From: Candidatus Scalindua sp. SCAELEC01
Lineage (GTDB): Bacteria; Planctomycetota; Brocadiia; Brocadiales; Scalinduaceae
Direction: 5' to 3'
Length of the DNA: 35,673 nucleotides
Assembly: GCA_004282745.1 (NCBI GenBank)
Contig: SHMT01000039.1
Span: 1 to 35,673, forward strand
Part shown: in pieces, positions 3,919 to 34,727 of the stretch
Layout of the letters: each line of letters begins with the position of its first letter
Numbering within the stretch: position 1 is the stretch's first letter
Program-made: the position numbers and the translations under genes
Notes under the pieces: generated by a model
The model's input: the letters and a program-made list of their open reading frames with translations, nothing else
The model's database searches: none
What the model was told of the DNA's origin: nothing

Positions 3919-4642
3919 ATCCATCCTTTTATCCAATAAGCGGCAATGCCAAAATACTCTTTTATAGCGAGGCTTGAGTTTTCCAAATCTCCAACATTTG
4001 GTATAAAACTAAATGGATCGTATGGAGAGGGTTTAATAATAAAGTCAGAGGCAACAGGTACCGCATCAACGCCTATTTTTTTAAATAACGCATAAGCCCT
4101 TGGTATATGAAATGCAGAGGTTACAAGGACTATTTTCTTTGCATCAATTCTATCAAGGATCTGTTTTGTGTATATGGCATTCTCTCTTGTATTCCTTGAT
4201 TCAGTCTCGGCAATTATCGACCCATCAGGCACACCAAGCGCTGTAGCAATCTCTTTCATTGTCAACGCACCTTTTGGTCTCTGGTAGAAAATACTGCTAC
4301 TACCTCCACTCATAATAACCAAAGGAGCTACCTGTTTATGATAAAGAACTATCCCCTTTATAATCCTCTTTCCTTCACCCCCGGACAAAACAACTATGGC
4401 ATCTGATCTAGTAATGCCGATCTTATTTTCTAAATATTTATGTTCAAGAGGGGATAATAGTAGTTCGGCAGTAGGCCTGATACTGAAGAGGTAAATTATT
4501 ACTATGCCGCTAAATAAAAATGACTCGTATAATCTCTTTTTATTTCTATAACTCAGAATTAGAGCAGTTAGCACCAAGAAAAAGCTTATGCTTAGTGGGT
4601 AGATAAACCAAACTAAAATTTTTGATACTATAAAGAACACAA
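3822..4642. repeat. Direct repeat copy 2 (821 bp) of ydcF plus 5' wecB
   Basis: The parental-looking copy of the block at 1348-2168. Here both the wecB start codon and its downstream coding sequence are intact, so this arrangement is probably ancestral. The match stops at 4642; beyond it the sequences differ completely. Confidence 0.92.
3915..4640 (-). CDS. YdcF-like DUF218 membrane protein, copy 2
   Basis: A 241-residue protein of the same build as copy 1: two N-terminal membrane helices, then a DUF218 domain with DAIVVLSGGEG, SGGSSS, ESRNTREN and SAFHIPRA. The stop codon overlaps the wecB start (ATGA), so ydcF and wecB are translated as a unit. This supports a role in the same envelope glycan pathway. 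Differences from copy 1 cluster in the first 141 residues (for example I4, N33, E39, G75, Q102). Either copy could be the working one. The upstream 290 bases hold repeat copy B and no gene. Confidence 0.85.
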   Translation of the reverse strand: MFFIVSKILVWFIYPLSISFFLVLTALILSYRNKKRLYESFLFSGIVIIYLFSIRPTAELLLSPLEHKYLENKIGITRSDAIVVLSGGEGKRIIKGIVLYHKQVAPLVIMSGGSSSIFYQRPKGALTMKEIATALGVPDGSIIAETESRNTRENAIYTKQILDRIDAKKIVLVTSAFHIPRAYALFKKIGVDAVPVASDFIIKPSPYDPFSFIPNVGDLENSSLAIKEYFGIAAYWIKGWI

Positions 4643-7728: not shown

Positions 7729-8016
7729 CTTATTAAATCTAGAAACTATAAATTGCAAATTAGTAAAATTCCCTTTTGAATACCTAGCATGAGCGAGTTG
7801 GAAAAGAAATATTTCTTACAAGTGAATCAACTATAGTGCGTAAAGGTAATTTAGGGATAAAAGATAATTAACAAACAATAATCATGTAACCACGAAGAGT
7901 ACGAAGAAAGGATTAATAAAACAATTATCTTGCCACAAAAAAGACTCAAAATATATAAACCGCGGAATACACGAAATATGCAGAAGTTAAAGAACTCTAA
8001 TATACTCTAAATTTGT

Positions 8017-8516: not shown

Positions 8517-10649
8517 TTAACCATGAGCCAGCGCTATAATCACCCTACTAACCTCGAACAGCTCCTCAAGTGGAATAGGAGAACTCGTACCTTCTTTTAT
8601 TGCCTTCACAAAATCTGCGGTACAATTCTTCTGGCCTTTGTCCTGGCGCAAGAGATTCATTTTCTTAAACCCCGGCCAATCGAGACCTTTCATGGTTCTA
8701 AAATTATCCAACTGCAGGATTCGACCCGAAGCAAAGACCTCCAACCGCTCTTTAGGAAACTTTTTGCTCCCGTTGGCGAAATAGTGCACCGTGCCAAGTG
8801 ACCCATCAGCAAAGGAGAGTTGGATGGTTAGCGTATCACCAACTCCTTTTTTCATTTTCACTGCCGAACTGGATGTGATACGATCTCCAGCAAGAAAGCG
8901 TAGTAGATCAATAAAATGACAGGCTTCACCGATAATTCTCCCACCTCCAGTTGACGGGTCCTGAGTCCAGTGATCCTCAGGTATTGCCCCGGCATTAACC
9001 GTCATAATAAAAGACTTTGGCCCTTGCACACTCTCTAACAGTGACTTCATCTTTTGTATTTGTGGTGCGAACCTCCTGTTAAAGCCTACCATTAAGATAG
9101 GCACGGAATCGTGAGGTGTAGGATATGTGCTATAAAAGCTTTCAATTTGCTCCAGCTCATTAAGTGTCATGCACAGGGGTTTCTCTACAAAGACGTTTTT
9201 GCCTGCTTCAAGAGCCTCGCAGGTCAGACTTGCATGGCTATTATGCCAGGTGGCTATAACAACAGTATTTATTTCCTTATTGGCAATAAGAGCTGAGGTA
9301 TCAGTGGTAGCTTCCTGAATTCCATATTTACGGCCAGCGTGGACACCGCTTACGCCGCCACTTGAAGCCACAGACTTGAGTACAGCACCGGTTTGTTTAA
9401 ATGCAGGTATCAATGTCCTTGTGGCATAATTTCCCGCCCCAATAAAGCCAATAACTACTTCATCAGTCGATGAGTGCTGAGTCTTTATAGCATTCAGCTG
9501 AATAGTACGCTCATCTTTCAGGCTAATGTTCTGTTTATCTTCCGGTGACGGATATTGCAATAAAATCCCTAAAGCGGCTCGATCTTCGGCCAGCACCTTA
9601 TAAGCATCTACAGCCTTATCCAGTGGAAAACGATGGCTGATAAGGGGCATCATATCCAATTTACCACTTGCCATCATATCAAGAACTGCTTCAAAATTGC
9701 GCTGTTCTGTCCAGCGCACATAACCAACCGGATAATCCTGACCCTTCTCTTCATAAAGGGGATCATACCTCCCGGGCCCATAGGAACAAGATACCTGAAA
9801 AGAGACCTCACTTTTAAAAAAATCCGCCCTGGACAACTCCAGACCGACCACACCTATCAGGACTATTCTGCCTCGCTTTCGGCACATGTTTGCCGCCTGG
9901 TGCATGATGTCGTTACTTTTGGACGAGGCACAGACAAGCACGCCATCGACACCACGTCCGCGGGAAAACTCCATGGCCATAGCCACAGGATCTGTCCCAT
10001 TGGAAAGATCAGCCACACTGGCTCCAAAACTCCTGGCCAATTCACACTTCCTACTATCAAAGTCAATTCCCAATACCCGGCAACCATGGGCTAAAAGCAA
10101 TTGCACCGTCACCAAACCAACCAGACCAAGACCTGTTACCACAAAACTCTCACCAAGGGTAGGCTTGGCCAATCTTATCCCCTGCAATCCAATAGCCCCA
10201 ATCACCGTAAAGGATGCGGTCTCGTCACTCACATTATCAGGAATTCTGGCACAGAGGTTATACGGCACACATACAATTTCTGCATGATTACCATTGGATG
10301 CCACCCGATCCCCGGGCTGGAGCCCACTCCCCTCACCTGCTTCCAACACCCTGCCAACATTGCAATAACCCATCGGTAATGGTTGATCCAGCTTTGCCTG
10401 CACAGCATCAATAGTGGTCAGCAACCCATCAGTCTTTATCTTGTCATAAACCATACGCACCTTGTCCGGCTGCTGCCTGGCTTTAGAGATAATGCCCGCT
10501 TTTCCAAAATCCACAAGCATCCGTTCAGTCCCAGCTGATATCAGGCTTGTTGAGGACCGGATAAGATAATGCCCATACTTCTTTCGGGGGCTAGGAATAT
10601 TGACTAGTTCAGTTTTTCCGGTTTTCAGATTTTGGAGGATTTGTTTCAT
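8517..10649 (-). CDS. Bi-domain oxidoreductase (zinc-ADH-like plus Gfo/Idh/MocA)
   Basis: A 710-residue fusion. Residues 1-370 form a medium-chain alcohol-dehydrogenase-like domain with the Rossmann motif GLGLVGLVTVQLL near 175. Residues from about 388 form a Gfo/Idh/MocA domain with VIGFIGAGNYATRTL, WHNSHASLTCEAL and the catalytic-lysine motif VEKPLCM. Such fusions occur in exopolysaccharide clusters near heparinase-like and GT4 genes, as here, and probably oxidise or reduce a nucleotide sugar; the substrate is unknown. The ATG at 10647-10649 is preferred over a TTG six bases upstream because a duplicated copy of the 5' end (12437) begins with the same ATG. No strong ribosome-binding site is visible. 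Confidence 0.88.
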   Translation of the reverse strand: MKQILQNLKTGKTELVNIPSPRKKYGHYLIRSSTSLISAGTERMLVDFGKAGIISKARQQPDKVRMVYDKIKTDGLLTTIDAVQAKLDQPLPMGYCNVGRVLEAGEGSGLQPGDRVASNGNHAEIVCVPYNLCARIPDNVSDETASFTVIGAIGLQGIRLAKPTLGESFVVTGLGLVGLVTVQLLLAHGCRVLGIDFDSRKCELARSFGASVADLSNGTDPVAMAMEFSRGRGVDGVLVCASSKSNDIMHQAANMCRKRGRIVLIGVVGLELSRADFFKSEVSFQVSCSYGPGRYDPLYEEKGQDYPVGYVRWTEQRNFEAVLDMMASGKLDMMPLISHRFPLDKAVDAYKVLAEDRAALGILLQYPSPEDKQNISLKDERTIQLNAIKTQHSSTDEVVIGFIGAGNYATRTLIPAFKQTGAVLKSVASSGGVSGVHAGRKYGIQEATTDTSALIANKEINTVVIATWHNSHASLTCEALEAGKNVFVEKPLCMTLNELEQIESFYSTYPTPHDSVPILMVGFNRRFAPQIQKMKSLLESVQGPKSFIMTVNAGAIPEDHWTQDPSTGGGRIIGEACHFIDLLRFLAGDRITSSSAVKMKKGVGDTLTIQLSFADGSLGTVHYFANGSKKFPKERLEVFASGRILQLDNFRTMKGLDWPGFKKMNLLRQDKGQKNCTADFVKAIKEGTSSPIPLEELFEVSRVIIALAHG

Positions 10650-12107: not shown

Positions 12108-12437
12108 CTAATTCAAAAGAACCGCTTTAAAATTTCCAATATATATCCGGTAGTATCCAAAAGCAAGAGGCTGATCCAGCTTTGCCTGTACGGCATCGAT
12201 AGTGATCAGCAACCCGTCAGTCTTAATTTTTTCATACACCATTGGCACCTTATCCGGCTGCTGCCCGGCTTTTGAAACTAATCCGGCCTTGCCAAAACCC
12301 ACAAGCATCCGTTCAGTTCCAGCTGATATCAGGCTTGTTGAGGTCCGGATAACATTGTGCCCATACTTCTTCCTGGGGCTAGGAATATTGACTAGTTCAG
12401 TTTTTCCGGTTTTCAGATTTTGGAGGATTTGTTTCAT
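12108..12437 (-). pseudogene. 5' fragment of the bi-domain oxidoreductase (partial duplicate)
   Basis: The first about 95 residues match the intact gene at 8517-10649 closely (KQILQNLKTGKTELVNIPSP, ISAGTERMLVGFGKAG, ITIDAVQAKLDQPL). After LDQPLAFGY the frame continues into unrelated residues (YRIYIGNFKAVLLN) and stops. The DNA is clearly homologous to 10360-10649 but has drifted by many substitutions, so the duplication is not very recent. Upstream sequences of the two copies differ. The fragment keeps only part of the dehydrogenase domain and cannot be functional. It is separated from the full gene by vapBC and the 588-bp gap. Confidence 0.88.
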
Positions 12438-12506: not shown

Positions 12507-13283
12507 TCATCTTCCAAAATATTCATCAAAGAGAGCTTCTTTTTCATTTCGGTTGGGGTAATTTATTAATACTGCTCGGTATTTACCTTTAAACACAAAA
12601 AGACTTCCCGCAGCAGCACCAATAATTCCATGTTTTTTAATAAGCTTACCAATATCATCAATCGTTCCGGCTCCGCCAAGCACGGTCATAGGGACCCTGA
12701 CAAGAGGTTTGATTTTATCTATCAGGCTATAATCATAACCATCCATTACACCATCATTGTCTATAGAATTTATCACGATCTCACCAACTCCCATGTTTTG
12801 AAGCTTCACCACAAAATCTTTTATATCTATTTTTGTCTTTATTTTTCCGTTTTCTATATAAATGCTATAACCACCGAACATCGTTTTTTCTACATCTAAA
12901 ACGACAACTACACTCTGGGAGCCTACTTCCTTAGCTAATTCAGTAACCAAACCAGGATTCTCAATTACGCCTGAACTCAAAGCGATTTTTTCTACACCAA
13001 GGTTAAATATCCGTTGAGCCTGCTGAGATGTTTTTATACCTCCACCATAGCAAAGCGGCATCCTGCATTCAACTGCCAGGTTTTCTATCATTTTATAATC
13101 CGGCTCTCTTCGTTCAATAGTTGCATCAATATCAAGGACCATAAGTTCATCGGATTCTTTTTCATTAAATATCTTTACCGCGTTGAGGGGATCTCCAACA
13201 TATTTGGGGTCTTTGAATTGAACTGTCTTTACAAGACCTTTGTTACGCACCAACAAGCATGGGATAATTCTGGGATACAGCAT
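12507..13283 (-). CDS. HisF-like cyclase subunit of a sugar amidotransferase (WbuZ-like)
   Basis: A 258-residue (beta-alpha)8 barrel of the HisF family. VLDIDATIERREPDY, PLCYGGGIK, VVVLDVEK, INSIDNDGVMDGYD and LGGAGTIDDIG follow the HisF order. The first catalytic Asp of genuine HisF (PCLDV) is replaced here by Leu (PCLLVRNKGL). This is typical of the HisF2/WbuZ group in O-antigen clusters and argues against histidine synthesis. With HisH it channels glutamine-derived ammonia to the partner amidotransferase at 13894-15033. The start is the ATG that overlaps the hisH stop by one base (TGATG); a GTG one codon upstream is less likely. Confidence 0.88.
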   Translation of the reverse strand: MLYPRIIPCLLVRNKGLVKTVQFKDPKYVGDPLNAVKIFNEKESDELMVLDIDATIERREPDYKMIENLAVECRMPLCYGGGIKTSQQAQRIFNLGVEKIALSSGVIENPGLVTELAKEVGSQSVVVVLDVEKTMFGGYSIYIENGKIKTKIDIKDFVVKLQNMGVGEIVINSIDNDGVMDGYDYSLIDKIKPLVRVPMTVLGGAGTIDDIGKLIKKHGIIGAAAGSLFVFKGKYRAVLINYPNRNEKEALFDEYFGR

Positions 13284-13897
13284 CACAATTCTCCAAAATT
13301 TTTGAGTAGTCCAACACCGTTATGATGACTTTTTTCCGGGTGGCATTGAATTCCATAAATATTGCCAGAATTTACTACACAGGTAAATTCATCTCCGCAA
13401 CTTGCAGTAGCCACAATATCGCAACTATTTGTGCATTCAAAATAGTATGAATGTAAGAAGTAAAAACGGGGTTCTTTCTCCAGGTTTATCAATAACGGAC
13501 TCTCTTTTCTAATATTCAATGTGTTCCATCCCATATGCGGGAGAGACATCTTCCCTTCTAACTTGGATTGATCAAATTTCTTAACAACTCCATCAATCCA
13601 GCCAAGGCCAGGCAATGATCCTTCATCACTTTTATTTGCCAACATTTGCATTCCTACACATATGCCAATAACCGGCAATTTTTTTTTAAATACCAACTTA
13701 TCAAGTCTTTCTCTCATACCTGAATCATGCAATCGTTGCATCGCATGATCAAATGACCCGACACCTGGCAAAATAATCTTTGTTGCATCTTTCAAGTCAT
13801 CAACACTTTTCGCGACTGTAAAAGCAATATTCAGATTCTTGTATATATTTGAAAAGGCCTTAATGTTCCCCACACCATAGTCAATAATTGCTATCAC
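13283..13897 (-). CDS. HisH-like glutaminase subunit (WbuY-like)
   Basis: A 204-residue class I glutamine amidotransferase. The catalytic triad is visible: Cys80 in GICVGMQML, His186 and Glu188 in QCHPEKSHH. The oxyanion region GVGSFDHAM is at 45-53. It hydrolyses glutamine and delivers ammonia through the HisF-like barrel. It starts with GTG, overlapping the upstream amidotransferase stop (GTGA at 13894-13897), and ends overlapping hisF, so the three genes are translationally coupled. The absence of other his genes and the glycan context support sugar amidination rather than histidine synthesis. Confidence 0.9.
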
Positions 13898-15033
13898 CTT
13901 TTACCACCTCTTTCAAGACCAAAAAAACGCATTACTTTTGCACCGATATCGTAAATCCACATTTGGTTTTTATAATCTTTATATGATTTATTTGGCGCAT
14001 CCATATAATTTTGCAGTTCAGCAACCGTGATATTAAGTTTAGTAGCGATATATTCAAAGTCCTGTTTTATTGTTTTTTCGTCAAATGCAGGATCTTTCAG
14101 CTTTTTTACTGCATCTTCTCTTGTCATTTGTCCGGTAAGTATGAGACTGGAGTATTGCACTCTCCTCGTGTCATAGCCGAATTTCACAGGCAGCCAGAAT
14201 GATTCATAAAACTTCGTAAACCTCGACTCAAAATGTTTTTGTGCATATCTTTGATATCCAAAATTGTCTACTAAAAACTGTGTAGTCTCCTCTTTATGAT
14301 AAGGGAGATAATCAAGTGGTCTTATAAGTTTAATTTTCTTAATATATGGCAGATAAACTTTATGCCAAAGGATGTTTGTTATAGGAAAACTCTTTAGTGG
14401 TCTTTGTCCAAATTTTTTATGAATATCCCTGAGTTGAATTGAGTCAGATTGATAATACATCCATTCAAGCGGATTTCTAATGCATTCCGTTGAATAATTA
14501 CCACCAGTTAAGATATATTTAACATCATACTTTTCTGCAAATTTATACATCATAGCAAAAAAAGCGTGATCCTGGGGAGCATCAATATGAGGTACACCTG
14601 ATTTGAAAAAAGACAACTGCAAATCCTTCATCTCCTCCCAGTTAATTACTTCGGTGTATAAATCAAGACCTAGTTTATCAACTATTTTTTCTATATTGTT
14701 TACCGCTTGTTGGGAGTTCCATCCCGCATCCACATGAAACACTAAAGGTCTAAGCCCTAATTTCTCCTTGGCTAAATGTACAAGGTATGAGCTATCTGTC
14801 CCACCACTCATACCAATGATACAGTCAAAGTCATTACCTTCTCCAGCTTTTTTGATATAATTAGTTAGTTTGGTAATTTCTCCCCAACCTCTATCATCAG
14901 TATGCCAGTATGGCTTTATGTCTTTGCAAAATGTCCTACAATGGTCACATATACCTTTTTCGTCAAAAGTAATCAAAGAGTCCGAGGTGTCCATGACACA
15001 GTTAGTGCATGTTTGGCGGTTGTTTTCACACAT
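13894..15033 (-). CDS. N-acetyl sugar amidotransferase (WbuX/WbpG/PseA-like)
   Basis: A 379-residue ATP-pyrophosphatase-type enzyme. A zinc-ribbon-like N-terminus has Cys9/Cys12 and Cys29/Cys32. The PP-loop [10 protein letters not shown] is at 75-84. The family (TIGR03573-type) converts an N-acetyl group on a nucleotide sugar to an acetamidino group using ammonia from HisH/HisF partners, as in P. aeruginosa WbpG-HisH2-HisF2 or legionaminic and pseudaminic acid amidination. The overlap with hisH and the order match the known trio. The exact sugar acceptor is unknown. Its product may feed a nearby GT4. The upstream 470 bases hold a MITE-like element. Confidence 0.9.
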
Positions 15034-23413: not shown

Positions 23414-24580
23414 TTACCCGATCCTTGGTGTTATTGTATAATTTAGTTTTGGCAAAACATGATGCCTTTTCAAAGAAATACTTTCCATTTCTCTGTCAGA
23501 AATGGTTACATTTTTCTCATAGTATTTGTCAACAAGATGTACCTTTACTTTCATGCCTGTCGAGGTTTTAGTGATTTTGGTAAAATTTAACGCCTTCTCA
23601 TAGCATACCAGTGGCTCCCCTTGCCAGTTCTTACTGATTTCGCTAAACAATCTATGTTCGATCGGATTCCACTTTGATACACCTGCTGGGTAGTGGCTTA
23701 TCGTTACAGACAAACCGTGAATGTCGCAAAGCTTATTTTGAATTTCATATTTCCATGCTCGCGATCTACAACCGTTGCTACCTCCAGCATCAGCCAAAAT
23801 ATAAATACTATGCGCCTTTGGGTATCTTTTTTCCCCTTCATACCTCCACCATTTTTCTATTACTTCAACTGCAAACAAAGGTGTATCAGCAGAAACCCCT
23901 CCGAATATTGTTCCTAAATTGCATACTGCATCATAGACGCCGTAAGGTATAAATTTACCTATTGCGTAAGATTCAAAATCATGGTCATATGTGCTTTTAC
24001 CTTGACGTTCATACGTTGCACCTTCGTTTTTGAAATTCCCAACCTTTTCTTTTTTCTTTGTGTCTACACTGATTATGGGGATTTTATTTTCTGCTGATTT
24101 TTCCCTGAGTTTTGCAATATAATCAAATTGATTGTTTCTGTCTATCTTTTCCTCTTTTGTGAGTATTTTCCCACCGCTAGAAATTCCCTTGTGGTTCACT
24201 CTTAATGAAAACCTCATTTTTTTTAGTATTGTGCCAACGGTCTTTCTGCTGACATTAATGCCATGTAACTCAAGTTTTTCTGCAATTTTGCCAGGTGTTT
24301 TTCTACATCACTTCAACCCAGTAATAGGATCACCGACAACATCATTTTTCATTAACCTTTCAATTTCGGTAATTATTTCAGGCGTTTTTTTTAATGGTGG
24401 TCGTCCACCTCCCTTTTTTCTTATACGATCTAACTCTGAGTCGCGCGATAATAGTTCCTTTCTGCCTTGTGTGACTGTATTTACATGTAATCCAAGGGCG
24501 GAAGCTATTATTATATCACCTCCATGCCCAATCTTCATAGATTCCAACCCAGCGTAAAGCCTTTTTTGTTTTTCATCAAG
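23414..24580 (-). pseudogene. ISAzo13-family transposase, split by in-frame TGA
   Basis: The N-terminal part (LLDEKQKRLYAGLESMKIGH through GGGRPPLKKTPEI) is followed by TGA at 24308-24310. The same frame then continues CRKTPGKIAEKLELHGINVS and on to 23414. The second half carries the DDE residues: Asp in IISVDTKKKEKVG, Asp in YILADAGGSNG, Glu in KWNPIEHRLFSEI. The stop again looks like a Trp codon changed to TGA (GLK-stop-CRKTPGK). Without readthrough the catalytic half would need internal initiation. Faint ends (ATTGAAAT at 23402, its complement at 25163) might be terminal repeats, but eight bases are weak support. Confidence 0.75.
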
Positions 24581-25104
24581 TAAAAAAAAATAAAATAATT
24601 GATGCCTTTAGCTTATTGTCTTTGTTGTCATACTTGTTCCTTGAAAACTCTTGCCTCTTTCTTATTTCAGCCTTGACGGAGAAATAAATGTAAATCCCTT
24701 TAGATTTTTTTCGGATAATTCGTTTTTTACGTATCAAATTAAACAAGGGTTCCTTGGTTTCTACCGAAAGTATATCTTTAAGTTCACTTGCAGAATAACC
24801 CATTTCTGATTTGTCAATAAATGCTTTATGCTTTGACGGTTTCCACAAAATTACCGTGGCAAGAAAACATTGCCTCCCCACAAGACCATAATCCGGTTTT
24901 GTCAAATTTAGCCTGCTCTACCAAGGCGTAATACTTTCCTCTATGGGAATAGCTTGAAATGTACGAGAGCTCGGACAACTTGCGAAAGACTGTCATCCTG
25001 GAATTAGTCCCTAAAGCGTTCTTTAATTCTTCGATTGTAGGAGTTGTTATTTTGTAAAAGAGTTCTCTCAGATTGTCAAGAGTAAGGGAGCCTGATTTTA
25101 TCAC
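24576..25104 (-). pseudogene. Upstream ORF of the ISAzo13-type element, frameshifted
   Basis: It begins with GTG at 25102-25104 after a strong AGGAGG. The product reads IKSGSLTLDNLRELFYKITT, a winged-helix-like region (LKNALGTNSRMTVFRKLSEL), then AFIDKSEMGYSASELKDILS and a basic tail. A 7-base tandem duplication (aaagcat twice on the coding strand, 24821-24834) shifts the frame in the middle. At the 3' end a run of nine T bases (coding strand, near 24582-24590) separates this frame from the transposase frame; a -1 slip joins LKASIILFF to LLDEKQKRLYAG. It may once have been translated as one long transposase by slippage. Confidence 0.55.
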
Positions 25105-25170
25105 GACACAATTCCTCCTTATATTTATACCAAAAGAAGAATTGTATCCTAACTGGCTCACAATTTCAAT

Positions 25171-25790
25171 CAACAACCACCCCTTAAAAGGGTGGTTTGA
25201 AAGGCGACCCTAAAAGGGTAATTTATTTTAACAATTTATCTTGATCCATATCTTTGTCTTTTTTCAATTGCCATCTTACATACTTACGAATTTGTTCCTC
25301 ATCAAGACCAACAGTACTTACACAATATCCTTTTGCCCAAAAGTGTCGTCCCCAGTAGCGCTTCTTCAAATCCAAATACCAGTCAAACATCTTGATGGCA
25401 CTCTTGCCTTTCAGAAATCCAATCATTTCTGACACTGAGTATTTCGGTGGAATTGACAACACCAAATGTATATGGTCTCTTTGTACATTGCCTTCTAATA
25501 TCTCTATTTTTTTCCACTCACACAGTTGCTTGATAATGTCTCGTGCTAACATGACTACCTCACCTGTTAAAATCCTAAATCTGTACTTTGGACACCATAC
25601 CAAATGGTATTCGCAATCATACACTGCATGTGCCAACTTATTAAATCTTCCCATTGAATACCTCCTTTTTCTCTTAGAGTCGCCTAACTCTATATTAAGG
25701 AGGTATTCATTTTAAACAAATTTATTCCACTACCCTACACGCATAGCATAGCTGGGACCCACCAGCACAGCTGGTGGTTTAAAGTACTGC
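25171..25790 (-). mobile_element. IS200/IS605-type element, apparently intact
   Basis: A roughly 620-bp element with one gene, bounded by perfect subterminal hairpins: AACCACCC-cttaaaa-GGGTGGTT at 25175-25197 and CCACCAGC-aca-GCTGGTGG at 25759-25777. These flank the coding sequence as in IS200/IS605 elements, which transpose as single-stranded DNA. It abuts the right edge of the ISAzo13-type element. No tnpB is present. Ends are approximate. Confidence 0.75.
25223..25654 (-). CDS. tnpA: IS200/IS605 family transposase TnpA
   Basis: A 143-residue Y1 HUH transposase. KYRFRILTGEV is near the N-terminus, the HUH metal site is HIHLV (His61 and His63), and the C-terminal helix QIRKYVRWQ (Tyr125) supplies the likely nucleophile. 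WGRHFWAKGYCVSTVG lies between. The start ATG is preceded by GGAGG seven bases upstream. Length and motifs are complete, so this copy could be active and could act on the nearby dead copy if ends match. It catalyses single-strand excision and insertion at hairpin ends. Confidence 0.92.
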   Translation of the reverse strand: MGRFNKLAHAVYDCEYHLVWCPKYRFRILTGEVVMLARDIIKQLCEWKKIEILEGNVQRDHIHLVLSIPPKYSVSEMIGFLKGKSAIKMFDWYLDLKKRYWGRHFWAKGYCVSTVGLDEEQIRKYVRWQLKKDKDMDQDKLLK

Positions 25791-26031: not shown

Positions 26032-26931
26032 TTAATGATGATCAATAACAATCCATCGATCAGGGATCAATCCAGGAAATCCCCATGCAGTAACTTTCCC
26101 CTGTAACATGCCAGGAGTAATGATTACTGTGTCAGCTTGAGTTTCACCCAACCATGCTCCCCACCAGCTAAATGAGCTGTTAGCAATTATAAAATGCCTG
26201 CACTTTGTCATAAGCCATAGGTCAGCATATGCATTTTCATCTCCATTATTGTGGGAGACATAAGCAACATTGTCCCCAGGGAACTTAAGTAATTTGCGTG
26301 CTGCATCAGTGTTATCAGAAAACAGAAAGTACCGTGGTGATACTATTTTTTTTTCTATAAGTGCAATCGCGTTATGGTAATAAGCCAAAGAAGCATTGTG
26401 TGAAAAATTGCTGCTTAACTCATCAAACAAACGCACATGTATTGCTACAGCATTACTCTTGAGAATTTCTTCATTCATACGCAGATTTTTAGCATCTGAA
26501 GGTGAAGCAATGCGAAGATCCTCTCTAAGAGATTGTTCAATATCCTTAAAATAACCTTCACTCTGCCAATACCCCTCAAGATATACCGTCCCTCTCGGGT
26601 TGTACTCCAAAAGGCGCGGGTCAAAACCAATCCCCTCCTGCTGTATATACTGCCGTTGTTCAAGCGGCCTGCGTTGATTGATGCGACGCTTCAAATATCG
26701 ACGCATACGAGAGAACGGCTCAAACCTTTCAGCACGAGTAGCATTACGGCATGGGATGTTAAAATGGTTAAGCTGATAATGTCGCTCATAGTCGTGGTCG
26801 TATGCAAACCCACTTACATTGTCAATGACAAGTTCTGCGTTATTTACTATCGAAAGCCGACGAGCTGCGGCATAGCAAAAGAGCTGGTTCCCGATGCCGC
26901 CGAAAATGCGGGTGATAATTTTTGTAGGCAT
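26032..26931 (-). CDS. GT11 alpha-1,2-fucosyltransferase
   Basis: A 299-residue family 11 glycosyltransferase. The N-terminal GDP-binding signature is GGIGNQLFCYAAARRLS (11-27). The catalytic H-x-R motif is VAIHVRLFDE (His165, Arg167), where the family more often has HVRRGD. NSSFSWWGAWLGE near 250 and the final WGFPGLIPDRWIVI complete the fold. It transfers L-fucose from GDP-fucose to a galactosyl-type acceptor at the cytoplasmic face. The start follows the polymerase-like gene stop by four bases. GDP-fucose would have to be made elsewhere because only a scrap of the synthase is seen at 35065. Confidence 0.9.
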   Translation of the reverse strand: MPTKIITRIFGGIGNQLFCYAAARRLSIVNNAELVIDNVSGFAYDHDYERHYQLNHFNIPCRNATRAERFEPFSRMRRYLKRRINQRRPLEQRQYIQQEGIGFDPRLLEYNPRGTVYLEGYWQSEGYFKDIEQSLREDLRIASPSDAKNLRMNEEILKSNAVAIHVRLFDELSSNFSHNASLAYYHNAIALIEKKIVSPRYFLFSDNTDAARKLLKFPGDNVAYVSHNNGDENAYADLWLMTKCRHFIIANSSFSWWGAWLGETQADTVIITPGMLQGKVTAWGFPGLIPDRWIVIDHH

Positions 26932-26935
26932 ATCT

Positions 26936-28420
26936 TCAGATCAAGAATTTGTAAACCAAGTAAAACAACGCGCACATTGCCAGCAATACAATCCAGCGCA
27001 ACGTCCAGCGTCGCACCTCTCTTGTTCGGCAACAGGTATAACCCTGCCACATGCATGCAAAGAGCAACAGGGTGAACATCAACCGATAGCGTCCGTGGAC
27101 GATAAGATTGCCACCAGCGACGGAAGCAAAGGTGACCCAGAACGTGATCGGAATAATCAATGGTGCGGGGAACCGCTTGCGATTACGCCAGGCTTGCGCA
27201 GTCCCGGCCAGAACAAACGGGAAGCCAAGCAACATCATGGCCGATGTCGGTATAACCATCAGACGTTGCCAGGCGCTCCAACTACCGCTAATCAATTCAG
27301 TCAAGGAGATGTAGATATTCGGCAGAGGTGTTGCCAAATATAGTAGCATGCGAGGCAGCAGAAAAACGATCGACTGCCATGCGCTGCTCGGGACGAGCAG
27401 CAAACCGATAGAATTTTCGCTCCATTCGTCGTGGGCAGCAACATTGGCCTCAACCGACTGAATCCGGTTCAGGGTAGCAAAGTAATCGATGTTATAACCC
27501 CCGGTGAATTGCTGGATGAGTGGTCCTGCCAACAGAGCGCCTACGCCCATCGCTATCAGCAGCACCTTTAGCACTGGCCCCAACGTGCGGTGTGATTTTA
27601 GAATTAGTGCCATGGCGGTGATGCTTACCACCAACGGAATCACCATACTGGTACGCACCATCAGAATGGCGGCGAAAGCGGCGCCGGACAACAGCAGCGT
27701 GCCGCTCAGCGATGCACGGCAAATTCCGACCATATATTTTCCGGCTGACAGAGCTGCGATCAGGATCAGAACCAACATGAGAGTTTCCCTACTTGTCATC
27801 ACGTCGTACCACAGCACCTCCGGCACCAATAGTAGACAGGCGATTGTCCAGTCCTTACCAGTCCTCTCTGCGGAAAAAGTATACGCACAGCGGATCAGAA
27901 ACCGCGTCCCAAGTAGGGTGACAAAGGCATTGATCAGTGCCGGAATCACAGGATTGTGACCAAAGAGATAGAAAATCCCCGCAAAATAATAAATGATACC
28001 TTGATAGTTTGAGCCAACTACCGGGTTCCAGCCGTTTTCAATCAATTTCCAGGCATCCCGGAAATAACGTTGAGGATCGTAGCCCCAGCTTACTGAAATT
28101 GCCTCATCTAATTCTGGGATCCACCCCGCATAAAGCAGAAAGATTGTAATGGCGATTTTAAACAGCCAGAATGTCCCTAACAAACTGATACGCGGATCTT
28201 TCAGGGAAACTCTCGTACGGTGACAAAGCCACAAACCGCTGATGGTCACCAAAATGAAAATTGCCAGCGTATTGAGAACTGCTATATGGACGGTACTCCC
28301 CAGCCAATACACACCCAACCAGAGCAATAATTGCAGCAGGATGGTTCGCCACAGGGACATCGACCGCATAGGTTGTCGTATGCTCAACTGGGTTGATGGT
28401 AACGTATGCGTTTTTCTCAT
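26936..28420 (-). CDS. Polytopic membrane protein, polymerase or GT39-like
   Basis: A 494-residue protein with about ten hydrophobic spans. A conserved-looking loop, SWGYDPQRYFRDAWKLIENG, lies after the third or fourth span, followed by NYQGIIYYFAGIFYLFG. This resembles membrane glycosyltransferases of the GT39/PMT type and some Wzy-like polymerases. In this operon, which has a flippase but no other polymerase, a repeat-unit polymerase role is the likely one. It is GC-richer than its neighbours, suggesting a separate origin. Stop and start spacing to flanking genes is 4 and 12 bases. Confidence 0.65.
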   Translation of the reverse strand: MRKTHTLPSTQLSIRQPMRSMSLWRTILLQLLLWLGVYWLGSTVHIAVLNTLAIFILVTISGLWLCHRTRVSLKDPRISLLGTFWLFKIAITIFLLYAGWIPELDEAISVSWGYDPQRYFRDAWKLIENGWNPVVGSNYQGIIYYFAGIFYLFGHNPVIPALINAFVTLLGTRFLIRCAYTFSAERTGKDWTIACLLLVPEVLWYDVMTSRETLMLVLILIAALSAGKYMVGICRASLSGTLLLSGAAFAAILMVRTSMVIPLVVSITAMALILKSHRTLGPVLKVLLIAMGVGALLAGPLIQQFTGGYNIDYFATLNRIQSVEANVAAHDEWSENSIGLLLVPSSAWQSIVFLLPRMLLYLATPLPNIYISLTELISGSWSAWQRLMVIPTSAMMLLGFPFVLAGTAQAWRNRKRFPAPLIIPITFWVTFASVAGGNLIVHGRYRLMFTLLLFACMWQGYTCCRTREVRRWTLRWIVLLAMCALFYLVYKFLI

Positions 28421-28432
28421 TACAGCGACTTT

Positions 28433-29128
28433 TCAACCATGTTTCACCGCTACACAATGCCATCCAAAGCAAGCCAGATCCTCCGCCCGCTTATCACAAC
28501 GCAGTTTGAAATATAAAACACCCAACAAACTGAAGGCATAGGCAAGCGGCCAGCTCCAGTTTCTGAGCTGTCTCTCCATGCTGCCAAGGCGAGTCAATTC
28601 CTGCCCTATGCAGGCGAACCAATCACCATTATGGCTAAGTTCGTCGATGTTGAAGCCGCGCTGACCAAGGTGATGTTCATACCAGTAACGGGAAAATCCG
28701 CTATAGTAATGATATGGCGCCATATGCACTAGTGAGGCGAAAGGAGCTGTAAGAATCAACCTTCCTCCTGGTTTGAGTAATCGTGCGAATTCGTCAAGTG
28801 CGTGAGTCGGCTCAGGCACATGTTCCAGCACTTCACTGCAAATAATGGCATCGAAGCTAGCATCTGGAGCAGGAATCGACGTGATATCACTCACCAAGTC
28901 GATGTGGCTAGTGTCCCAGTGCTTGCATTGTAAACCTTTATTGATTGCCTCATCCTGTCCCTGATATTGACAAAAATCTTGTGATACATAGTCGAGATAA
29001 CCGCAGTATTGTCTATTCTTTAACTCACCTGCACCAGCATCAAGTATGCGTGTACCCATTGGCAACTCAGAAAGAACCTTCTTCAGCCAATCTTGTCTAT
29101 TAATTTCGTTTATATTTTTGTTAAACAT
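28433..29128 (-). CDS. Class I SAM-dependent methyltransferase
   Basis: A 231-residue methyltransferase from the ATG at 29126-29128, supported by a GAG at the right distance and by spacing of seven bases from the DUF268 stop. An upstream in-frame start would overlap that gene. Motif I is RILDAGAGELKNRQ (residues 28-41); ICSEVLEHVPEP (about 97-108) and LLKPGGRLILTAPF follow. YHYYSGFSRYWYEHHL is common to Methyltransf_11 enzymes of glycan clusters. It probably methylates a sugar of the repeat unit. Confidence 0.82.
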   Translation of the reverse strand: MFNKNINEINRQDWLKKVLSELPMGTRILDAGAGELKNRQYCGYLDYVSQDFCQYQGQDEAINKGLQCKHWDTSHIDLVSDITSIPAPDASFDAIICSEVLEHVPEPTHALDEFARLLKPGGRLILTAPFASLVHMAPYHYYSGFSRYWYEHHLGQRGFNIDELSHNGDWFACIGQELTRLGSMERQLRNWSWPLAYAFSLLGVLYFKLRCDKRAEDLACFGWHCVAVKHG

Positions 29129-29135
29129 TGTATCT

Positions 29136-29918
29136 CTATTGAATTTTTTTTTTGAATATAAGAATACCAAGATTGTATCGATCCTCGGCAAGCTTTCGAA
29201 GATTTTCCTCGGTCAACGATACCTTACGCACCATTCCTCCTTCTTGAATCACCGACAACCCTCGGACGCTAAGCGCGTTTGTTTCTGCGCATTGAATAAT
29301 CGTGCGGGGATCAAAAACACGGTTAGCATTGAACTCGACCCGATCAATTCCGATGGGAACGGACAGGTAAAAGACCCCATCATCCCGCAGCAAACCCGCC
29401 ATATTTGCAAGTCCACGCTCAAAACCTTTAGGATCAATCGGGTCGCCATACCTGCCTAAGCCAAAGTGCTCCAGCGCATGCAGGCAGGAAAGAGAGTCGC
29501 AATAGCCCACCATATTATCCAGAGGCTTCATAAGATCGGCCTGTTTAAATGTTATGCCCGGTATTTGAGTTGTCATTGGTCTGACATCTAACACCTCAAT
29601 TTCACGAAAGCTAGCCACGTGGGCGACAAACCCATCCACGCGAGATCCAATATCTACATGCTTCTCCGGCTTGGACTCAAAGATCATCCTGGCCACCAGC
29701 AAATCCTGCCAGAAGTACTCGTTCTTGGTCGTTCCGCCTTCTTCATGCCAGTCGTACAGACAAGGACTCAAATCAAGTTCCCCAGCATAGCTGTCGCGAA
29801 AACGATAATAATCACGCATATATCGCGGCAGGCCCAGCAAAGAGCGGAAAAATATTCTCGGATCTAGCCCAAACTGGTTGGCGATGAGCCAATGTGTTTT
29901 GATTAGAAATCTTTTCAT
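29136..29918 (-). CDS. DUF268 protein, possible methyltransferase fold
   Basis: A 260-residue DUF268 protein. Typical pieces are YDWHEEGGTTKNEYFWQDLL, HVDIGSRVDGFVAHVAS, HALEHFGLGRYGDPID, and VPIGIDRVEFNANRVFDP. DIGSRVDG occupies the position of a SAM-binding glycine loop, so an unusual methyltransferase is plausible, but no activity is established for the family. It recurs in polysaccharide loci beside GT4 and methyltransferase genes, as here. The start overlaps the GT4 stop (ATGA, 29915-29918). Confidence 0.8.
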   Translation of the reverse strand: MKRFLIKTHWLIANQFGLDPRIFFRSLLGLPRYMRDYYRFRDSYAGELDLSPCLYDWHEEGGTTKNEYFWQDLLVARMIFESKPEKHVDIGSRVDGFVAHVASFREIEVLDVRPMTTQIPGITFKQADLMKPLDNMVGYCDSLSCLHALEHFGLGRYGDPIDPKGFERGLANMAGLLRDDGVFYLSVPIGIDRVEFNANRVFDPRTIIQCAETNALSVRGLSVIQEGGMVRKVSLTEENLRKLAEDRYNLGILIFKKKIQ

Positions 29919-31300
29919 CTAAGGGCTCTGACGAAAGACCTAAAAATAGATTGATATGTATCAACAACCACCTGCATGTATTCCTTGACTGTCTTAATCT
30001 GAGGAAACTCTATTTGTCCAGAGCGAATATGATCCTTCTGTGATACAGCACACCGAATTGCATCAGTAAGTGAGCTAACCGACATAAATTCAGCCAGGTA
30101 TCCATTCTTATTATCAATCACTAAATCCTCAATTGGCGGCACTCGCGTAGCTATAACCGGAACCTGATAAGACAACGCCTCAACCAGCGACAGTGGGGTA
30201 TTATCTATCCATACAGAAGGAATGATCACCACATCGGTACTGTTTAATAAAGGCTCTACCTCCACCCAGCCTAACCACTCCACTATAGTGCCACCCACCT
30301 TGCTCGGGTATTTTGCCTTAAGCTCGGTACAGTACTTTGAGGTATTCGTCCCTGCTATACGCAATTGCATTGGACCTGCATCATGTATTTTTTCAAGTGC
30401 ATCGAAAATAAGATGAATCCCTTTTTCTGGAGACACACGGCCTATATAGGTAATCGTAAACAACTGTTCCGGTATGATTGACTTCTCTATCTTAACAAGG
30501 TCATGATACCAGGGCATAACTGTAATGCGGTCAGGTGGTGCGCCGAGTTGTGTGAAAAACTGCCGTCCAAACTCGGACGGAGTAAAGCAATGGGATAGTT
30601 TTGATAGCACACGAGTTGCACGGGTATAGTTCTTTGCTGAACGCTGCTGTGCTGAATACCGTACGATGCCACGTTGCCGAAGCATATCTCGTAGCAATGT
30701 CCTCTCAAGCATTGGTAAAAATTGCCTGACTGTTTTGTATTGCACAAGTGTCTCATTAGCTCTGCCAACAAAGCCTCGTCCGCTCACAACACATTTTGCA
30801 CACTTGTCGACTGCAACTTGTCCGTCACAAAGAACATTATTACCCATAACCAATACAGTTCGTAGACAGGCAATACCCCAATCATGGTTGGTATAGACTG
30901 TTGGTATACCAAGACGTTGGGCTGAATCGAGCAGCCACCAGAGGCCATGGCGATGTTGAAGATGGACAATGTCAGGCGTTAGAGATTGTAATAACTGCAT
31001 CCCGTAGGTCACTGCAGCTTCCCATGCAGCCTCTGAAATAACATTTCCACCTGCTATTTCATTCCATTCTAAAGGTGCCTTGAAAACACGATAAGTTAAT
31101 CCCCCTCTAACCACCTTTAAGGCTGGAACTTCTGCAATTTGATTTGGCAGTGGACCAGTCCACAAATCGTTAAGCGGCCATGTTAGTATTTCAATATCAA
31201 CCCCGAAATCCTCTTGCAGTGATTTTGCTTGCAGAACCACATTTTTGTTTACGCCGATTGAATCGGGGTCGACGTAACGGCTGACTATCAAGACTTTCAT
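29915..31300 (-). CDS. GT4 glycosyltransferase
   Basis: A 461-residue GT-B enzyme from the ATG at 31298-31300, ten bases after the NTase stop; the frame is open farther upstream but overlaps that gene. The N-terminus MKVLIVSRYVDPDSIGVNKN and the CDGQVAVDKCAKCVVSGRG insertion near 165-185 are characteristic of a GT4 subgroup with a Cys-containing loop. Donor-domain motifs are TYIGRVSPEKGIHLIFDAL, STDVVIIPSVWIDNTPLSLV and YQVPVIATRVPPIEDLV. Substrate unknown. Confidence 0.87.
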   Translation of the reverse strand: MKVLIVSRYVDPDSIGVNKNVVLQAKSLQEDFGVDIEILTWPLNDLWTGPLPNQIAEVPALKVVRGGLTYRVFKAPLEWNEIAGGNVISEAAWEAAVTYGMQLLQSLTPDIVHLQHRHGLWWLLDSAQRLGIPTVYTNHDWGIACLRTVLVMGNNVLCDGQVAVDKCAKCVVSGRGFVGRANETLVQYKTVRQFLPMLERTLLRDMLRQRGIVRYSAQQRSAKNYTRATRVLSKLSHCFTPSEFGRQFFTQLGAPPDRITVMPWYHDLVKIEKSIIPEQLFTITYIGRVSPEKGIHLIFDALEKIHDAGPMQLRIAGTNTSKYCTELKAKYPSKVGGTIVEWLGWVEVEPLLNSTDVVIIPSVWIDNTPLSLVEALSYQVPVIATRVPPIEDLVIDNKNGYLAEFMSVSSLTDAIRCAVSQKDHIRSGQIEFPQIKTVKEYMQVVVDTYQSIFRSFVRALR

Positions 31301-31310
31301 GGGAATCGCT

Positions 31311-32333
31311 CTATCGCTCACTGGCGCCAAACGTGAAAGTACGTACACACGCGTTAATTATTTTTATCATACGTAGTCTGCTTTTGGAAAGTGATATTGC
31401 AAATGGTGTTATAAAGGGATACGATAGCTCTTTTTCCTGATAAATCCTCGCCACCCTGCGACTGGCTTCAGAATATTCGAGAATTTTATTATTACCATTG
31501 ATGAGACCTATAAATCCCTCCCCAATTTTAATCAGACCATTTGGAACGCCCACAAATTTAAAACCACCTAATTGGTTCAATGTGGTTATTTTTTTGGCAA
31601 AAAGTACAGTGCTTCGGTTTGGGAAAAAAGGTCTTAACCCGTTAGTGTTCTTGTTATCTTCAGTAGGCGCGCAGAACTGATCAAAGGCCAGACAAGTAGA
31701 CCTAAATTGAAGCCAGAATTCATCTAAAATATACGCCTCATCAATAAAGTCACTATTTATGACTTTTCCTCTAAGTTTTTCACTTTTTCTCTCCATTTTT
31801 GAATTGACATCATTCAATGACGCGAAATAGTGCTCAGATGTTTCAAGATTCTTATGAATAAGCAACAGCAACCGAAGGGGTACCAGACGAGAACGATATA
31901 TACCCATGACTACTATGATAAGAAAAGACCACCATACCATATGCAAGCATTCCATGCTGTCATCATCTGGTCGCATAATGTTGGGGTTACATGTTCCAGA
32001 TATAAATTGCACATTATACATGGAATGCAATATATTCGCGTCTTCAAGGATTTCGTCTATCAAATACACCGGTCTATGCCAAAAGGTTTTTCGAAGTATT
32101 GGATCACTATTACACTCCTCTTCAAACTTGCGCTCCAATTTTAATATTTGCAACGGCCTACCGACGACGACCGCATCGATGTCAGAAACACCAGGGCAAC
32201 TTATATTTCCAAAGTATCCGATACGCACGCTTTTTATACCAACATCATTACACACGGCTTCAAATCTGGCTTGCGAATATTCGTATTCTTTATATCCAAG
32301 GTCCCTTGGCAGATCATCTATAACTTTCTTCAT
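31311..32333 (-). CDS. Nucleotidyltransferase-fold protein of unknown role (1)
   Basis: A 340-residue protein. The pol-beta NTase signature is recognisable in VRIGYFGNISCPGVSDIDAV (about residues 36-55): Gly followed by Asn rather than Ser, then Ser-Asp-Ile-Asp with two metal-binding Asp residues at 51 and 53. A central hydrophobic stretch (VWWSFLIIVVMGIYRSRLVP) might be membrane-associated or a buried helix. I do not recognise a named family. It pairs with a second NTase-fold gene immediately upstream (21 bases), in the flippase-GT4 operon. A nucleotidyl or phosphoryl transfer to a glycan or its precursor is possible but speculative. Confidence 0.6.
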   Translation of the reverse strand: MKKVIDDLPRDLGYKEYEYSQARFEAVCNDVGIKSVRIGYFGNISCPGVSDIDAVVVGRPLQILKLERKFEEECNSDPILRKTFWHRPVYLIDEILEDANILHSMYNVQFISGTCNPNIMRPDDDSMECLHMVWWSFLIIVVMGIYRSRLVPLRLLLLIHKNLETSEHYFASLNDVNSKMERKSEKLRGKVINSDFIDEAYILDEFWLQFRSTCLAFDQFCAPTEDNKNTNGLRPFFPNRSTVLFAKKITTLNQLGGFKFVGVPNGLIKIGEGFIGLINGNNKILEYSEASRRVARIYQEKELSYPFITPFAISLSKSRLRMIKIINACVRTFTFGASER

Positions 32334-32354
32334 TCTTTTTTTATTTTCTATAGG

Positions 32355-33341
32355 TTATGGAACATTTGCCTCTGATTCGATTAATTTTTTAGATTGAGCG
32401 AGAAATGTCTGAACCATCGATAACCGCAATATTGGAAACAAGTCTTTTTGAAATCTGGGTGCAAATATTTTAGCAAATACCCTGTACGCGTGCGGATTCA
32501 TAAACAGAAATGGACTGTACTTAAATAAACAATATCTCCATCCACTTAACGCCTTCGACCATGTCTTTCTGATTAACTCACAGGTATGCAATAGGTCAAG
32601 TGATTCTCCGGCCAACACTTGACCTGCATGCTCTATTGCCCATTTCTTTGAAACACGCATACCGTTGATTTGAAACATATAAGCCGGTGTTAACAATACA
32701 GATCCAACCAGACATTTCATCCTATACAGGTTGATGCGGCCATCTTGATATTCACTGAATAACTGCTCGATTCCGGTTACCGTACCAAGCAGATTCCGTT
32801 TAATCCCGTAATACGTTTTGGTTTTACATATATTCGCATGTACAGATTCCGGCCCACGGATGCATAGAGCACCATCAAGGACTTTAATCGGCATGTAAGA
32901 CTCATCTAATGCAAGCAGTTGTTCTTGGGATAATATCCAATGGCCATGATGTTGTAGTGGATCAAGCCTGCAGAATCGCATATCAACTTTGTTCAACCAG
33001 GCACGAAATTTTCTTTCATTAGAGTTATCCGAATATTTATTCTCGGAATATATAATTAGGTCGTCGAAATCGGAGAAGGCTATATTGCTTCCATCCCCCC
33101 AACTTCCATGAATATATATCCAGACATTTAAGAATTGTTCATGTCCGTTAAAGGCCTGGGCTATCTGGTGTGGCAAAGACCGCTTTCGTACAGTAACAAC
33201 ATCCGAAAGAAACTCGCTCTGAACAGATGTGTCGTCAATACAAACCGCAGCATACGGGCGTGGGCTATGCATGATTCGCCAAATATCGCGCATAAGCGTT
33301 GCCAAGATGCCACCTGGATATGGGTTTAATATAGACCTCAA
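32355..33341 (-). CDS. Nucleotidyltransferase-fold protein of unknown role (2)
   Basis: A 328-residue protein with a clearer NTase signature: IYIHGSWGDGSNIAFSDFDD (residues 75-94), Gly-Ser, then Asp-Phe-Asp-Asp as metal ligands. A third carboxylate may be in IKVLDGALCIRG. LQHHGHWILSQEQLLAL at about 128-144 resembles an active-site segment in sugar-linked NTases, but no named family is recognised. Its start overlaps the flippase stop (ATGA, 33338-33341), so it is translated with it. Its role in repeat-unit decoration is inferred from context only. Confidence 0.6.
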   Translation of the reverse strand: MRSILNPYPGGILATLMRDIWRIMHSPRPYAAVCIDDTSVQSEFLSDVVTVRKRSLPHQIAQAFNGHEQFLNVWIYIHGSWGDGSNIAFSDFDDLIIYSENKYSDNSNERKFRAWLNKVDMRFCRLDPLQHHGHWILSQEQLLALDESYMPIKVLDGALCIRGPESVHANICKTKTYYGIKRNLLGTVTGIEQLFSEYQDGRINLYRMKCLVGSVLLTPAYMFQINGMRVSKKWAIEHAGQVLAGESLDLLHTCELIRKTWSKALSGWRYCLFKYSPFLFMNPHAYRVFAKIFAPRFQKDLFPILRLSMVQTFLAQSKKLIESEANVP

Positions 33342-34717
33342 GATGAAAAAAACCTCACGGAACGGTTAAATACACCAACCGGATTCATAGCTGTCAGCTT
33401 CATGAAAAAAATCGGCTTTGTCTCTGTTTGAAGAAGATCGAAGATTAATGCGGCAAAAGCGTAACTCAACATAGTTCCAATTGCCGCACCTGACAACCCT
33501 AACACTGGGATCAGGCTCATGTTGAGAACTACGTTAAACAATGCACCCAAGCTTGCGCGCTGTAAGCTGAGGATTTGACGATCTTCGGCAAGCATCCAAT
33601 GGTAACTCGTCACGCTCATCGCAACGAATATCCCAGTCCATATATGAATTGCAAGCACTAACGCAGCCGACTGGTAATCAGCTCCGTATACGAGTGCAAT
33701 GATTCTCTCTGTAAAAAACGTAAAGACAATTGCTAAGGATAAACTCAATGTTACTAAAACGTCAAAGACTGTTTGTAATCGTTGTAGATATAGTTCGAGA
33801 CTTCTCTCTTTTGCTCGAAGGATGGCTGGAAACACAGAAGCAATGATTACAGTGGGGACAAAATGCCATATCTGGCTCACGTTAACTGCCGCAGCGTAAA
33901 TACCAACCGCTTCATCACCCAGTATCAGACCTATCATAATCTTGTCAATACCCATATAAATAAGAGCAGCGAAACCCGAAAGAAATAAAGGCCAACTGGC
34001 TTGCAGTAAAAACCGAACCTGACCGATCCTAAAGATCCATTTAGTTAGTCGACCACCAGACCAATGGTAGACTGCGAGCATGGCCACGCAAATAAAAACT
34101 GATTCCGCCAGCACAATCCACAAAAAGGACAGGAGAGACGCTTCATTAAGAATAAGCGTAATCTTGGCAACTGCTGCGAGCAAAAACGCGCTGTTGGCAG
34201 CAACCACAGAGTATTTCGATTGAACCTGGGCTTCGAACCAATAAATGATCGGACTACAAAATTTAAACAAAAGGGTGAGGCCAGCTATAGCAACTGCGGT
34301 CTTGGAGATGGAATCATTTGGCCGTAGTACCTGAATAGTAGTTATTACCGCCAAGAATGCGACCATACCGCCCATAAGATGAAGCACAGCACTTGTGCCA
34401 AGAAACTCGTTAGTTAGTAATGGCTTTTTAACAATCTCACGAACTACTATTCCAGCCAACCCCATCATTGCTAGGGGGCTAAGCAAACCTACAAGTGAGA
34501 GGGTAAAGTTGTAGAGACCGAATTGTTCCGGCCCCAAGTAACGTGCGAACCACACGGTTACCACTCCGCCAACGCCCATCCGCAGAATCTTGTCGAAAAA
34601 AAGCCAGCAAATGTTATCGACAATCTTGAGAAAATTTGAGCGTTGTGCAATGCGGCGGTAAGTAGAAAATAGGGACAGCGACCGTTTTTGTCTCAACTGT
34701 TTCTTACTCAGCTTCAT
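33338..34717 (-). CDS. wzx: Oligosaccharide flippase (Wzx-type)
   Basis: A 459-residue protein of the MOP superfamily with about 12-14 hydrophobic spans. GVGGVVTVWFARYLGPEQFG at the N-terminus and LYNFTLSLVGLLSPLAMMGL follow the RfbX/Wzx pattern. GFAALIYMGIDKIMIGLILG and DEAVGIYAAAVNVSQIWHFV are typical of flippases. It moves the undecaprenyl-linked repeat unit across the inner membrane. It is the first gene of the right-hand operon and is coupled by ATGA to the next. The ATG at 34715-34717 is preferred over an in-frame TTG six bases upstream. Substrate cannot be read from the sequence. Confidence 0.9.
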   Translation of the reverse strand: MKLSKKQLRQKRSLSLFSTYRRIAQRSNFLKIVDNICWLFFDKILRMGVGGVVTVWFARYLGPEQFGLYNFTLSLVGLLSPLAMMGLAGIVVREIVKKPLLTNEFLGTSAVLHLMGGMVAFLAVITTIQVLRPNDSISKTAVAIAGLTLLFKFCSPIIYWFEAQVQSKYSVVAANSAFLLAAVAKITLILNEASLLSFLWIVLAESVFICVAMLAVYHWSGGRLTKWIFRIGQVRFLLQASWPLFLSGFAALIYMGIDKIMIGLILGDEAVGIYAAAVNVSQIWHFVPTVIIASVFPAILRAKERSLELYLQRLQTVFDVLVTLSLSLAIVFTFFTERIIALVYGADYQSAALVLAIHIWTGIFVAMSVTSYHWMLAEDRQILSLQRASLGALFNVVLNMSLIPVLGLSGAAIGTMLSYAFAALIFDLLQTETKPIFFMKLTAMNPVGVFNRSVRFFSS

Positions 34718-34727
34718 AATCAAATTC

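Follow-up and report, generated by a model that had tools for sequence, protein, structure and literature searches.

An obligate pair of nucleotidyltransferase-fold proteins encoded in surface-glycan loci of bacteria and archaea: a possible two-subunit transferase for glycan decoration

The window analysed here comprises positions 1 to 35,673 of contig SHMT01000039.1 of Candidatus Scalindua sp. SCAELEC01 (assembly GCA_004282745.1). Its list of open reading frames gives, in order on the minus strand, wzx, two genes here called A and B and separated by 21 nt, and a GT4 glycosyltransferase gene. The wzx gene (33338-34723, PF01943 E 2.4e-29) encodes a glycan flippase of the MOP family. Gene A (32355-33341) starts with TTG and encodes 328 aa, gene B (31311-32333) starts with ATG and encodes 340 aa, and the GT4 gene (29915-31300, PF00534 E 6.1e-24) stands directly after B. 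The tandem of A and B, flanked by wzx and the GT4 gene, corresponds to two adjacent reading frames that an earlier note on this DNA had placed at 31311-33341 in a wzx-GT4 run, and both are present there. That note had also described an overlap with wzx by ATGA; the overlap exists, but the sequence shared by the wzx stop and the start of A is TTGA, the start being TTG. For the GT4 gene, initiation at the ATG at 31300 is more likely than at the GTG at 31348, so that no overlap between B and GT4 is required.

Further along the minus strand, the cluster encodes a DUF268/methyltransferase-like protein (29136-29918, PF03269 E 5.2e-14), a SAM methyltransferase (28433-29191, PF08241 E 1.7e-15), a large hydrophobic protein without Pfam match (26936-28420), which judging from its sequence is possibly a membrane glycosyltransferase or polymerase, and a GT11-family glycosyltransferase (26032-26931, PF01531 E 7.8e-22). 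Transposase genes of the ISAzo13 and IS200 types (23414-25654) lie between the wzx/A/B part and the asparagine-synthase part of the cluster. Elsewhere in the window, an 821-base segment with a DUF218 protein gene occurs twice (1348-2168 and 3822-4642, 96.5% identical), its two copies flanking a UDP-GlcNAc 2-epimerase gene. A 270-base repeat (10381-10649 and 12169-12437, 89% identical) has one copy overlapping the start of a dehydrogenase/oxidoreductase fusion gene and the other just past a HisF-like gene. HisF-like, HisH-like and PP-loop amidotransferase genes stand in a row at 12507-15033, which we take to be the set expected for amidino-sugar synthesis in O-antigen loci. At 6163-7758, a heparinase II/III-like polysaccharide lyase gene adjoins a GT4 gene in a cluster that is otherwise synthetic.

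Protein A carries two motifs, both encoded on the minus strand. Motif I, HGSWGDGSNIAFSDFD (residues 78-93, 33063-33110), is in frame and contains GS and DxD. Motif II, DPLQHHG (residues 127-133, 32943-32963), supplies the candidate third carboxylate, D127, together with an invariant QHHG. Residues G79, S80, S90, D91 and D93 of motif I are identical in 30 of 30 A homologues. The same count holds for D127, Q130, H131, H132 and G133 of motif II, where invariance is partly due to construction, some loci having been found with the DPLQHHG pattern itself; D..QHHG is kept in all 12 loci found by profile alone. P151, K209, K232 and R258 are further invariant positions among the 30 sequences.

Because the window A protein stays under the Pfam cut-off (Polbeta E 0.027, 15 bits for a threshold of 26.9) and Pfam gives no match for window B, the evidence for their fold comes from homologues and from structure prediction. 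NTP_transf_2 was matched by 16 of 18 A homologues and Polbeta by 11 of the 18, the best member reaching E 8.8e-7. PDB searches with single sequences were uninformative, and the A profile gave matches to solved structures of adenylyltransferases and minimal NTases. The predicted model of window A (AF2 pLDDT 86.2, pTM 0.84) displays an NTase core followed by a C-terminal helical bundle. Its VIA Z score is 12.6 to ANT-3,9 (212 residues), well above the rows for unrelated structures, and 12.4 to AadA; across ANT-3,9, AAD(9) and AadA, Z is about 12 over 207-218 residues, covering both core and bundle. A thus echoes ANT(3'')(9)/AadA in its association of core and bundle over the whole chain and in its GS, DxD and candidate third acidic residue, and B shares the two-domain fold. 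It is distinguished from these enzymes by the QHHG loop, by an obligate partner gene and by a setting in glycan loci instead of resistance contexts, and the ANT models of NCBIfam do not match the window protein, single members being at E 0.003-0.006. On its motifs, A is the presumed catalytic subunit.

Protein B presents a different picture at its putative active site. Its motif GNISCPGVSDID (residues 42-53, 32175-32210, minus strand) is in frame and keeps DxD, with the serine of GS replaced: the window protein has GN where GS is canonical. The NTase signature that had been ascribed to both proteins is therefore complete for GS/DxD in A and non-canonical in B, and the predicted structures of both do show an NTase core. 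Y17, G42, S50, D51 and D53 are invariant in 30/30 B proteins, whereas position 43 is serine in only 8/30, the GS serine being lost in 22/30. His86 (32076-32078, minus strand) lies in the alignment near the expected position of the third carboxylate; this column holds His in 27/30 and Gly in 3/30, with an Asp adjoining in two of the three exceptions. As a group, B lacks the complete triad of GS, DxD and third carboxylate. With DxD universal, the GS serine present in 8/30 and His86 in 27/30, we term B an NTase-fold protein and not an active NTase.

The model of window B is mediocre (AF2 pLDDT 69.9), being good over most of residues 1-30, 51-110 and 121-220, and for this reason the role proposed for B rests on motif loss. 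Residues 12-221 match ANT-3,9 with a VIA Z of 8.9 and an rmsd of 3.6 over 189 residues, and a direct comparison of the two profiles, A against B, gave a weak match (hhalign E 8.6e-5, probability 60%). We infer that B is a fold-sharing partner, which would still bind metal or nucleotide and would not use the standard triad. Yet in two loci where B precedes A (L048 and L049), the B proteins have both GS and DxD as well as an Asp close to position 86; some B proteins may therefore still be active.

Pairing of A and B is beyond chance and is not unique to this genome: in 30 of 30 A loci, a B homologue is found at most 1.7 kb from A. The carriers are Planctomycetota, Bacteroidota, Ignavibacteria, Elusimicrobia, one gammaproteobacterium, Woesearchaeota and one IMG/VR contig. 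Genome contigs searched with the window A sequence alone gave no match and a profile search was needed, which returned 16 loci in named genomes (Planctomycetota, Scalindua, Woesearchaeota, Bacteroidetes/Bacteroidales, Carboxylicivirga, Lunatimonas, Ignavibacteriales, Elusimicrobia and one gammaproteobacterium). The plasmid and phage collections gave no match, and the A profile matched a single IMG/VR contig, IMGVR_UViG_3300025133_006890. In this contig, classed as viral, the A-B pair (L040:4842-6745) lies inside a run of glycan genes, among them look-alikes of a sialic-acid-type synthase and of a CMP-sugar synthetase.

Co-occurrence holds in both directions. The A profile gave 12 strong matches in 295 genomes of the class of Lunatimonas, Lunatimonas included, and all 12 strong A-positive genomes of Bacteroidia have B adjoining A. 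The B profile alone, run on 159 genomes of the class of Lunatimonas, detected 8 genomes, all of them A-positive and with B at the adjacent site. Among 147 genomes of the Woesearchaeota phylum, one further strong A match was obtained besides the query genome. Other A matches, weak ones at E 1e-3 to 1e-7, came from genomes of the order to which the window belongs, from G558 (L081) and from Woesearchaeota; being chance similarities or short NTases of a generic kind, they were left uncounted, and a B match in G174 (E 7e-4, L017) was dropped as it sits among unrelated genes.

In the usual arrangement B comes after A, their ends overlapping or nearly touching. Other layouts exist: A and B are convergent in four Woesearchaeota loci, B comes before A in L048 and L049, and one or two genes separate them in four loci (L044, L102, L105 and L106). 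In three Bacteroidota genomes (L054, L055, L056), A and B are fused into one protein. Moreover, A and B distances are correlated (r 0.84, or 0.71 without close copies), for permutation maxima of 0.31 and 0.43. The idea of a paired enzyme, advanced in the earlier note, is well supported by these fusions, by the two-way co-occurrence and by the correlated divergence. The nearest A relatives of the window protein belong to Lunatimonas (33%) and Ignavibacteriales (29%), other planctomycetes being less close; the pair therefore seems to travel between phyla, and this pattern suggests that it moves as a unit.

The closest relatives of A outside the pair are solitary A-like NTases of Planctomycetota (L014:8807-10003 and L015:9114-10328). 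They share the same core motifs, with DPLSHHG/DPLSHHS where A has DPLQHHG. No B neighbour was found for either, and L015 stands beside groEL and dnaJ genes and not in a glycan locus. Two better known systems bear a more distant likeness. GlnE is made of two NTase-plus-helical-bundle units, like the fused A-B proteins of Bacteroidales, but the structural similarity is weak (Z 6.7), the gene context is another one, and the GlnE family is not among the Pfam or NCBIfam matches of A or B members. MNT-HEPN/MntA has the NTase core in common with A, whose residues 176-328 form a HEPN-like bundle (Z about 6). However, A carries core and bundle in one chain of 330 aa, its partner B is itself of NTase fold, and the A-B pair is in glycan context and has no conserved RNase motif.

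The neighbourhood of the pair is dominated by glycan genes. A GT4 cluster is present in 24 of the 30 pair loci, and Wzc-, Wza- and polymerase-like clusters occur in about 10 loci each, these three names being a reading of the sequences partly backed by Pfam counts. The 91 nearest neighbours include 26 Glycos_transf_1, 9 Polysacc_synt, 6 sulfotransferase and 6 Methyltransf_11 proteins. No donor-synthesis gene, CDP-donor genes included, recurs among the neighbour clusters of the 30 loci, as expected if the donor were an ordinary NTP.

The proposed coupling to the flippase stands in part. In 6 of 25 non-redundant loci a glycan transporter gene lies directly upstream of A, for 2.1 expected (P about 0.01), a moderate enrichment. 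The transporter is wzx in five of them and, in L055, an ABC ATPase with a Wzt C-terminal domain. Several loci, on the other hand, have an ABC exporter in place of wzx or no wzx nearby. With an upstream transporter in 6/25, flippase coupling is thus a tendency and not a rule. In Candidatus Scalindua OFTM180 (L052:6099-10698), the fusion partners are TPR plus a glycosyltransferase domain for A and a methyltransferase for B, and these fusions indicate glycan modification even without a flippase. This pair adjoins genes that look flagellar from our reading of the sequences, which suggests a setting of the flagellin-glycosylation type.

Since the pair recurs in surface-sugar loci of distant bacteria, of archaea and on a contig classed as viral, it probably adds a group to cell-surface sugars. 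Starting from the genes, folds, residue conservation, obligate pairing, fusions and glycan-locus context computed directly here, we favour tentatively, at not quite an even chance, a model in which A and B together form a single two-subunit transferase of NTase fold, acting in the cytoplasm to decorate a surface glycan, or the precursor of one, ahead of its export. A would be the catalytic subunit, its GS and DxD carboxylates holding the NTP phosphates and Mg2+, with D127 as third carboxylate or general base. The acceptor side of A would be formed by the QHHG loop and the conserved Lys/Lys/Arg of the helical bundle. In the presumed reaction, a hydroxyl would receive AMP (NMP) from ATP (NTP), as happens with the O-adenylyltransferases that have the two-domain fold of A. 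B would bind or position the acceptor, or regulate A, instead of running the reaction of A, since, with DxD retained, the GS serine and the third carboxylate are usually missing from it.

NMP transfer to a hydroxyl leads because the full-length fold is that of ATP-using O-adenylyltransferases and A has the needed residues; nucleotidyl transfer by A is accordingly favoured on its complete motif set and its modelled adenylyltransferase-like fold. A glycan or glycan precursor is the leading acceptor in view of the glycan context, the neighbouring decoration enzymes and the Scalindua fusions. The possibility raised in the earlier note, that the repeat unit receives a nucleotide or a phospho group, is plausible on these motifs. 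We infer likewise that A is active, that the group would be AMP, that the acceptor would be a glycan and that the exporter would read the decoration. Other proteins of NTase fold activate lipids, modify proteins or, like LicD, transfer phospho-alditols, so that several chemistries are carried out on this fold and the reaction is not fixed by it.

The alternative that survives best concerns phospho-group transfer. A-B would take a phospho-alditol, or a group of the phosphocholine type, from a CDP-activated donor and place it on a lipid-linked glycan, which would then be checked by the flippase, as happens with LicD1, LicD2 and TacF in pneumococcus. The wzx-A-B layout resembles the lic2 unit (licD1-licD2-tacF), which encodes LicD1 and LicD2 together with the MOP flippase TacF (PMC4364537). 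The LicD family belongs to the NTase superfamily and uses CDP conjugates (PMC11666461); the two LicD proteins act on lipid-linked teichoic acid, and unmodified teichoic acid is blocked by TacF (PMC13385700). The lic2 unit thus indicates that decoration followed by an export check can work in such an arrangement. It is the closest layout analogue of the present locus, two NTase-superfamily proteins being encoded with a MOP flippase, and it suggests a common logic in which the lipid-linked glycan is decorated before export. Yet a transferase function is described for each of the two LicD proteins, while B has an altered look here. No A or B member matches Pfam LicD (PF04991) at E 0.1 and, as neither protein is a LicD by profile, the comparison is a layout analogy only. 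LicD/FKRP is absent among the structural matches listed for A, which leaves room for some similarity, and the lack of a recurrent CDP-donor gene in the neighbour clusters also argues against this mechanism, which we consider unlikely.

It is quite unlikely, too, that the acceptor is a protein. A-B would then adenylylate a glycan-assembly protein (flippase, Wzc or glycosyltransferase) and regulate export, B being the regulatory or removing half, in a distant parallel with GlnE. The best solved-structure match of the A profile is indeed a protein-AMPylating NTase domain (E 1.5e-4), GlnE domains are found among the structural matches of A (Z 6.7), and fused A-B resembles a two-NTase polypeptide. 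However, no one protein partner is common to all loci, several having ABC exporters instead of wzx or no wzx at all; what the loci have in common is glycan chemistry.

Precursor activation, in which A-B would make an NDP-X donor from a phosphorylated building block for another transferase of the cluster, appears improbable. CDP-lipid synthesis by proteins of NTase fold is known and B has a weak match to Tam41, but apart from the common GT4s the pair is not accompanied by any one conserved family of transferases. Very improbable is a defence or toxin-antitoxin module (MNT-HEPN, CBASS or Hailong-like) present by chance in variable glycan loci: some A members have weak PADLOC cyclase/candidate-defence matches (best 6e-6) and A matches HalB structurally (Z 9.2), but window A has no PADLOC match at E 0.01, no HEPN R-x4-6-H signature is conserved in the aligned columns, and no effector recurs beside the pair, which has glycan genes around it in bacterial and archaeal loci alike.

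To return to the decorating transferase, no curated family covers the A-B pair among the profile libraries searched. The literature searched, from which subscription papers were mostly absent, yielded neither a paper describing the pair nor a report of an AMP-bearing surface polysaccharide. The folds are singly known; the obligate and sometimes fused A-B pair in glycan loci appears to be undescribed. In its most specific form, which we regard as doubtful, A-B would be an unrecognised cross-domain enzyme adding an AMP-type phosphodiester to surface glycans and giving rise to a class of nucleotidylated polysaccharides. Wzx, or the substrate-recognition domain of Wzt, would possibly read this mark as a licence for export, and B would be a converted NTase presenting the glycan.

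The pair marks a step of surface-glycan assembly without a name in the searched profile libraries, and its conservation extends from anammox Planctomycetota and from Bacteroidota as far as DPANN archaea. The natural A-B fusions, of about 610 aa, offer a ready single-chain construct. If a nucleotide or phosphate group is indeed added, this step would explain why surface and matrix polymers bear charged decorations that escape prediction from current annotation.
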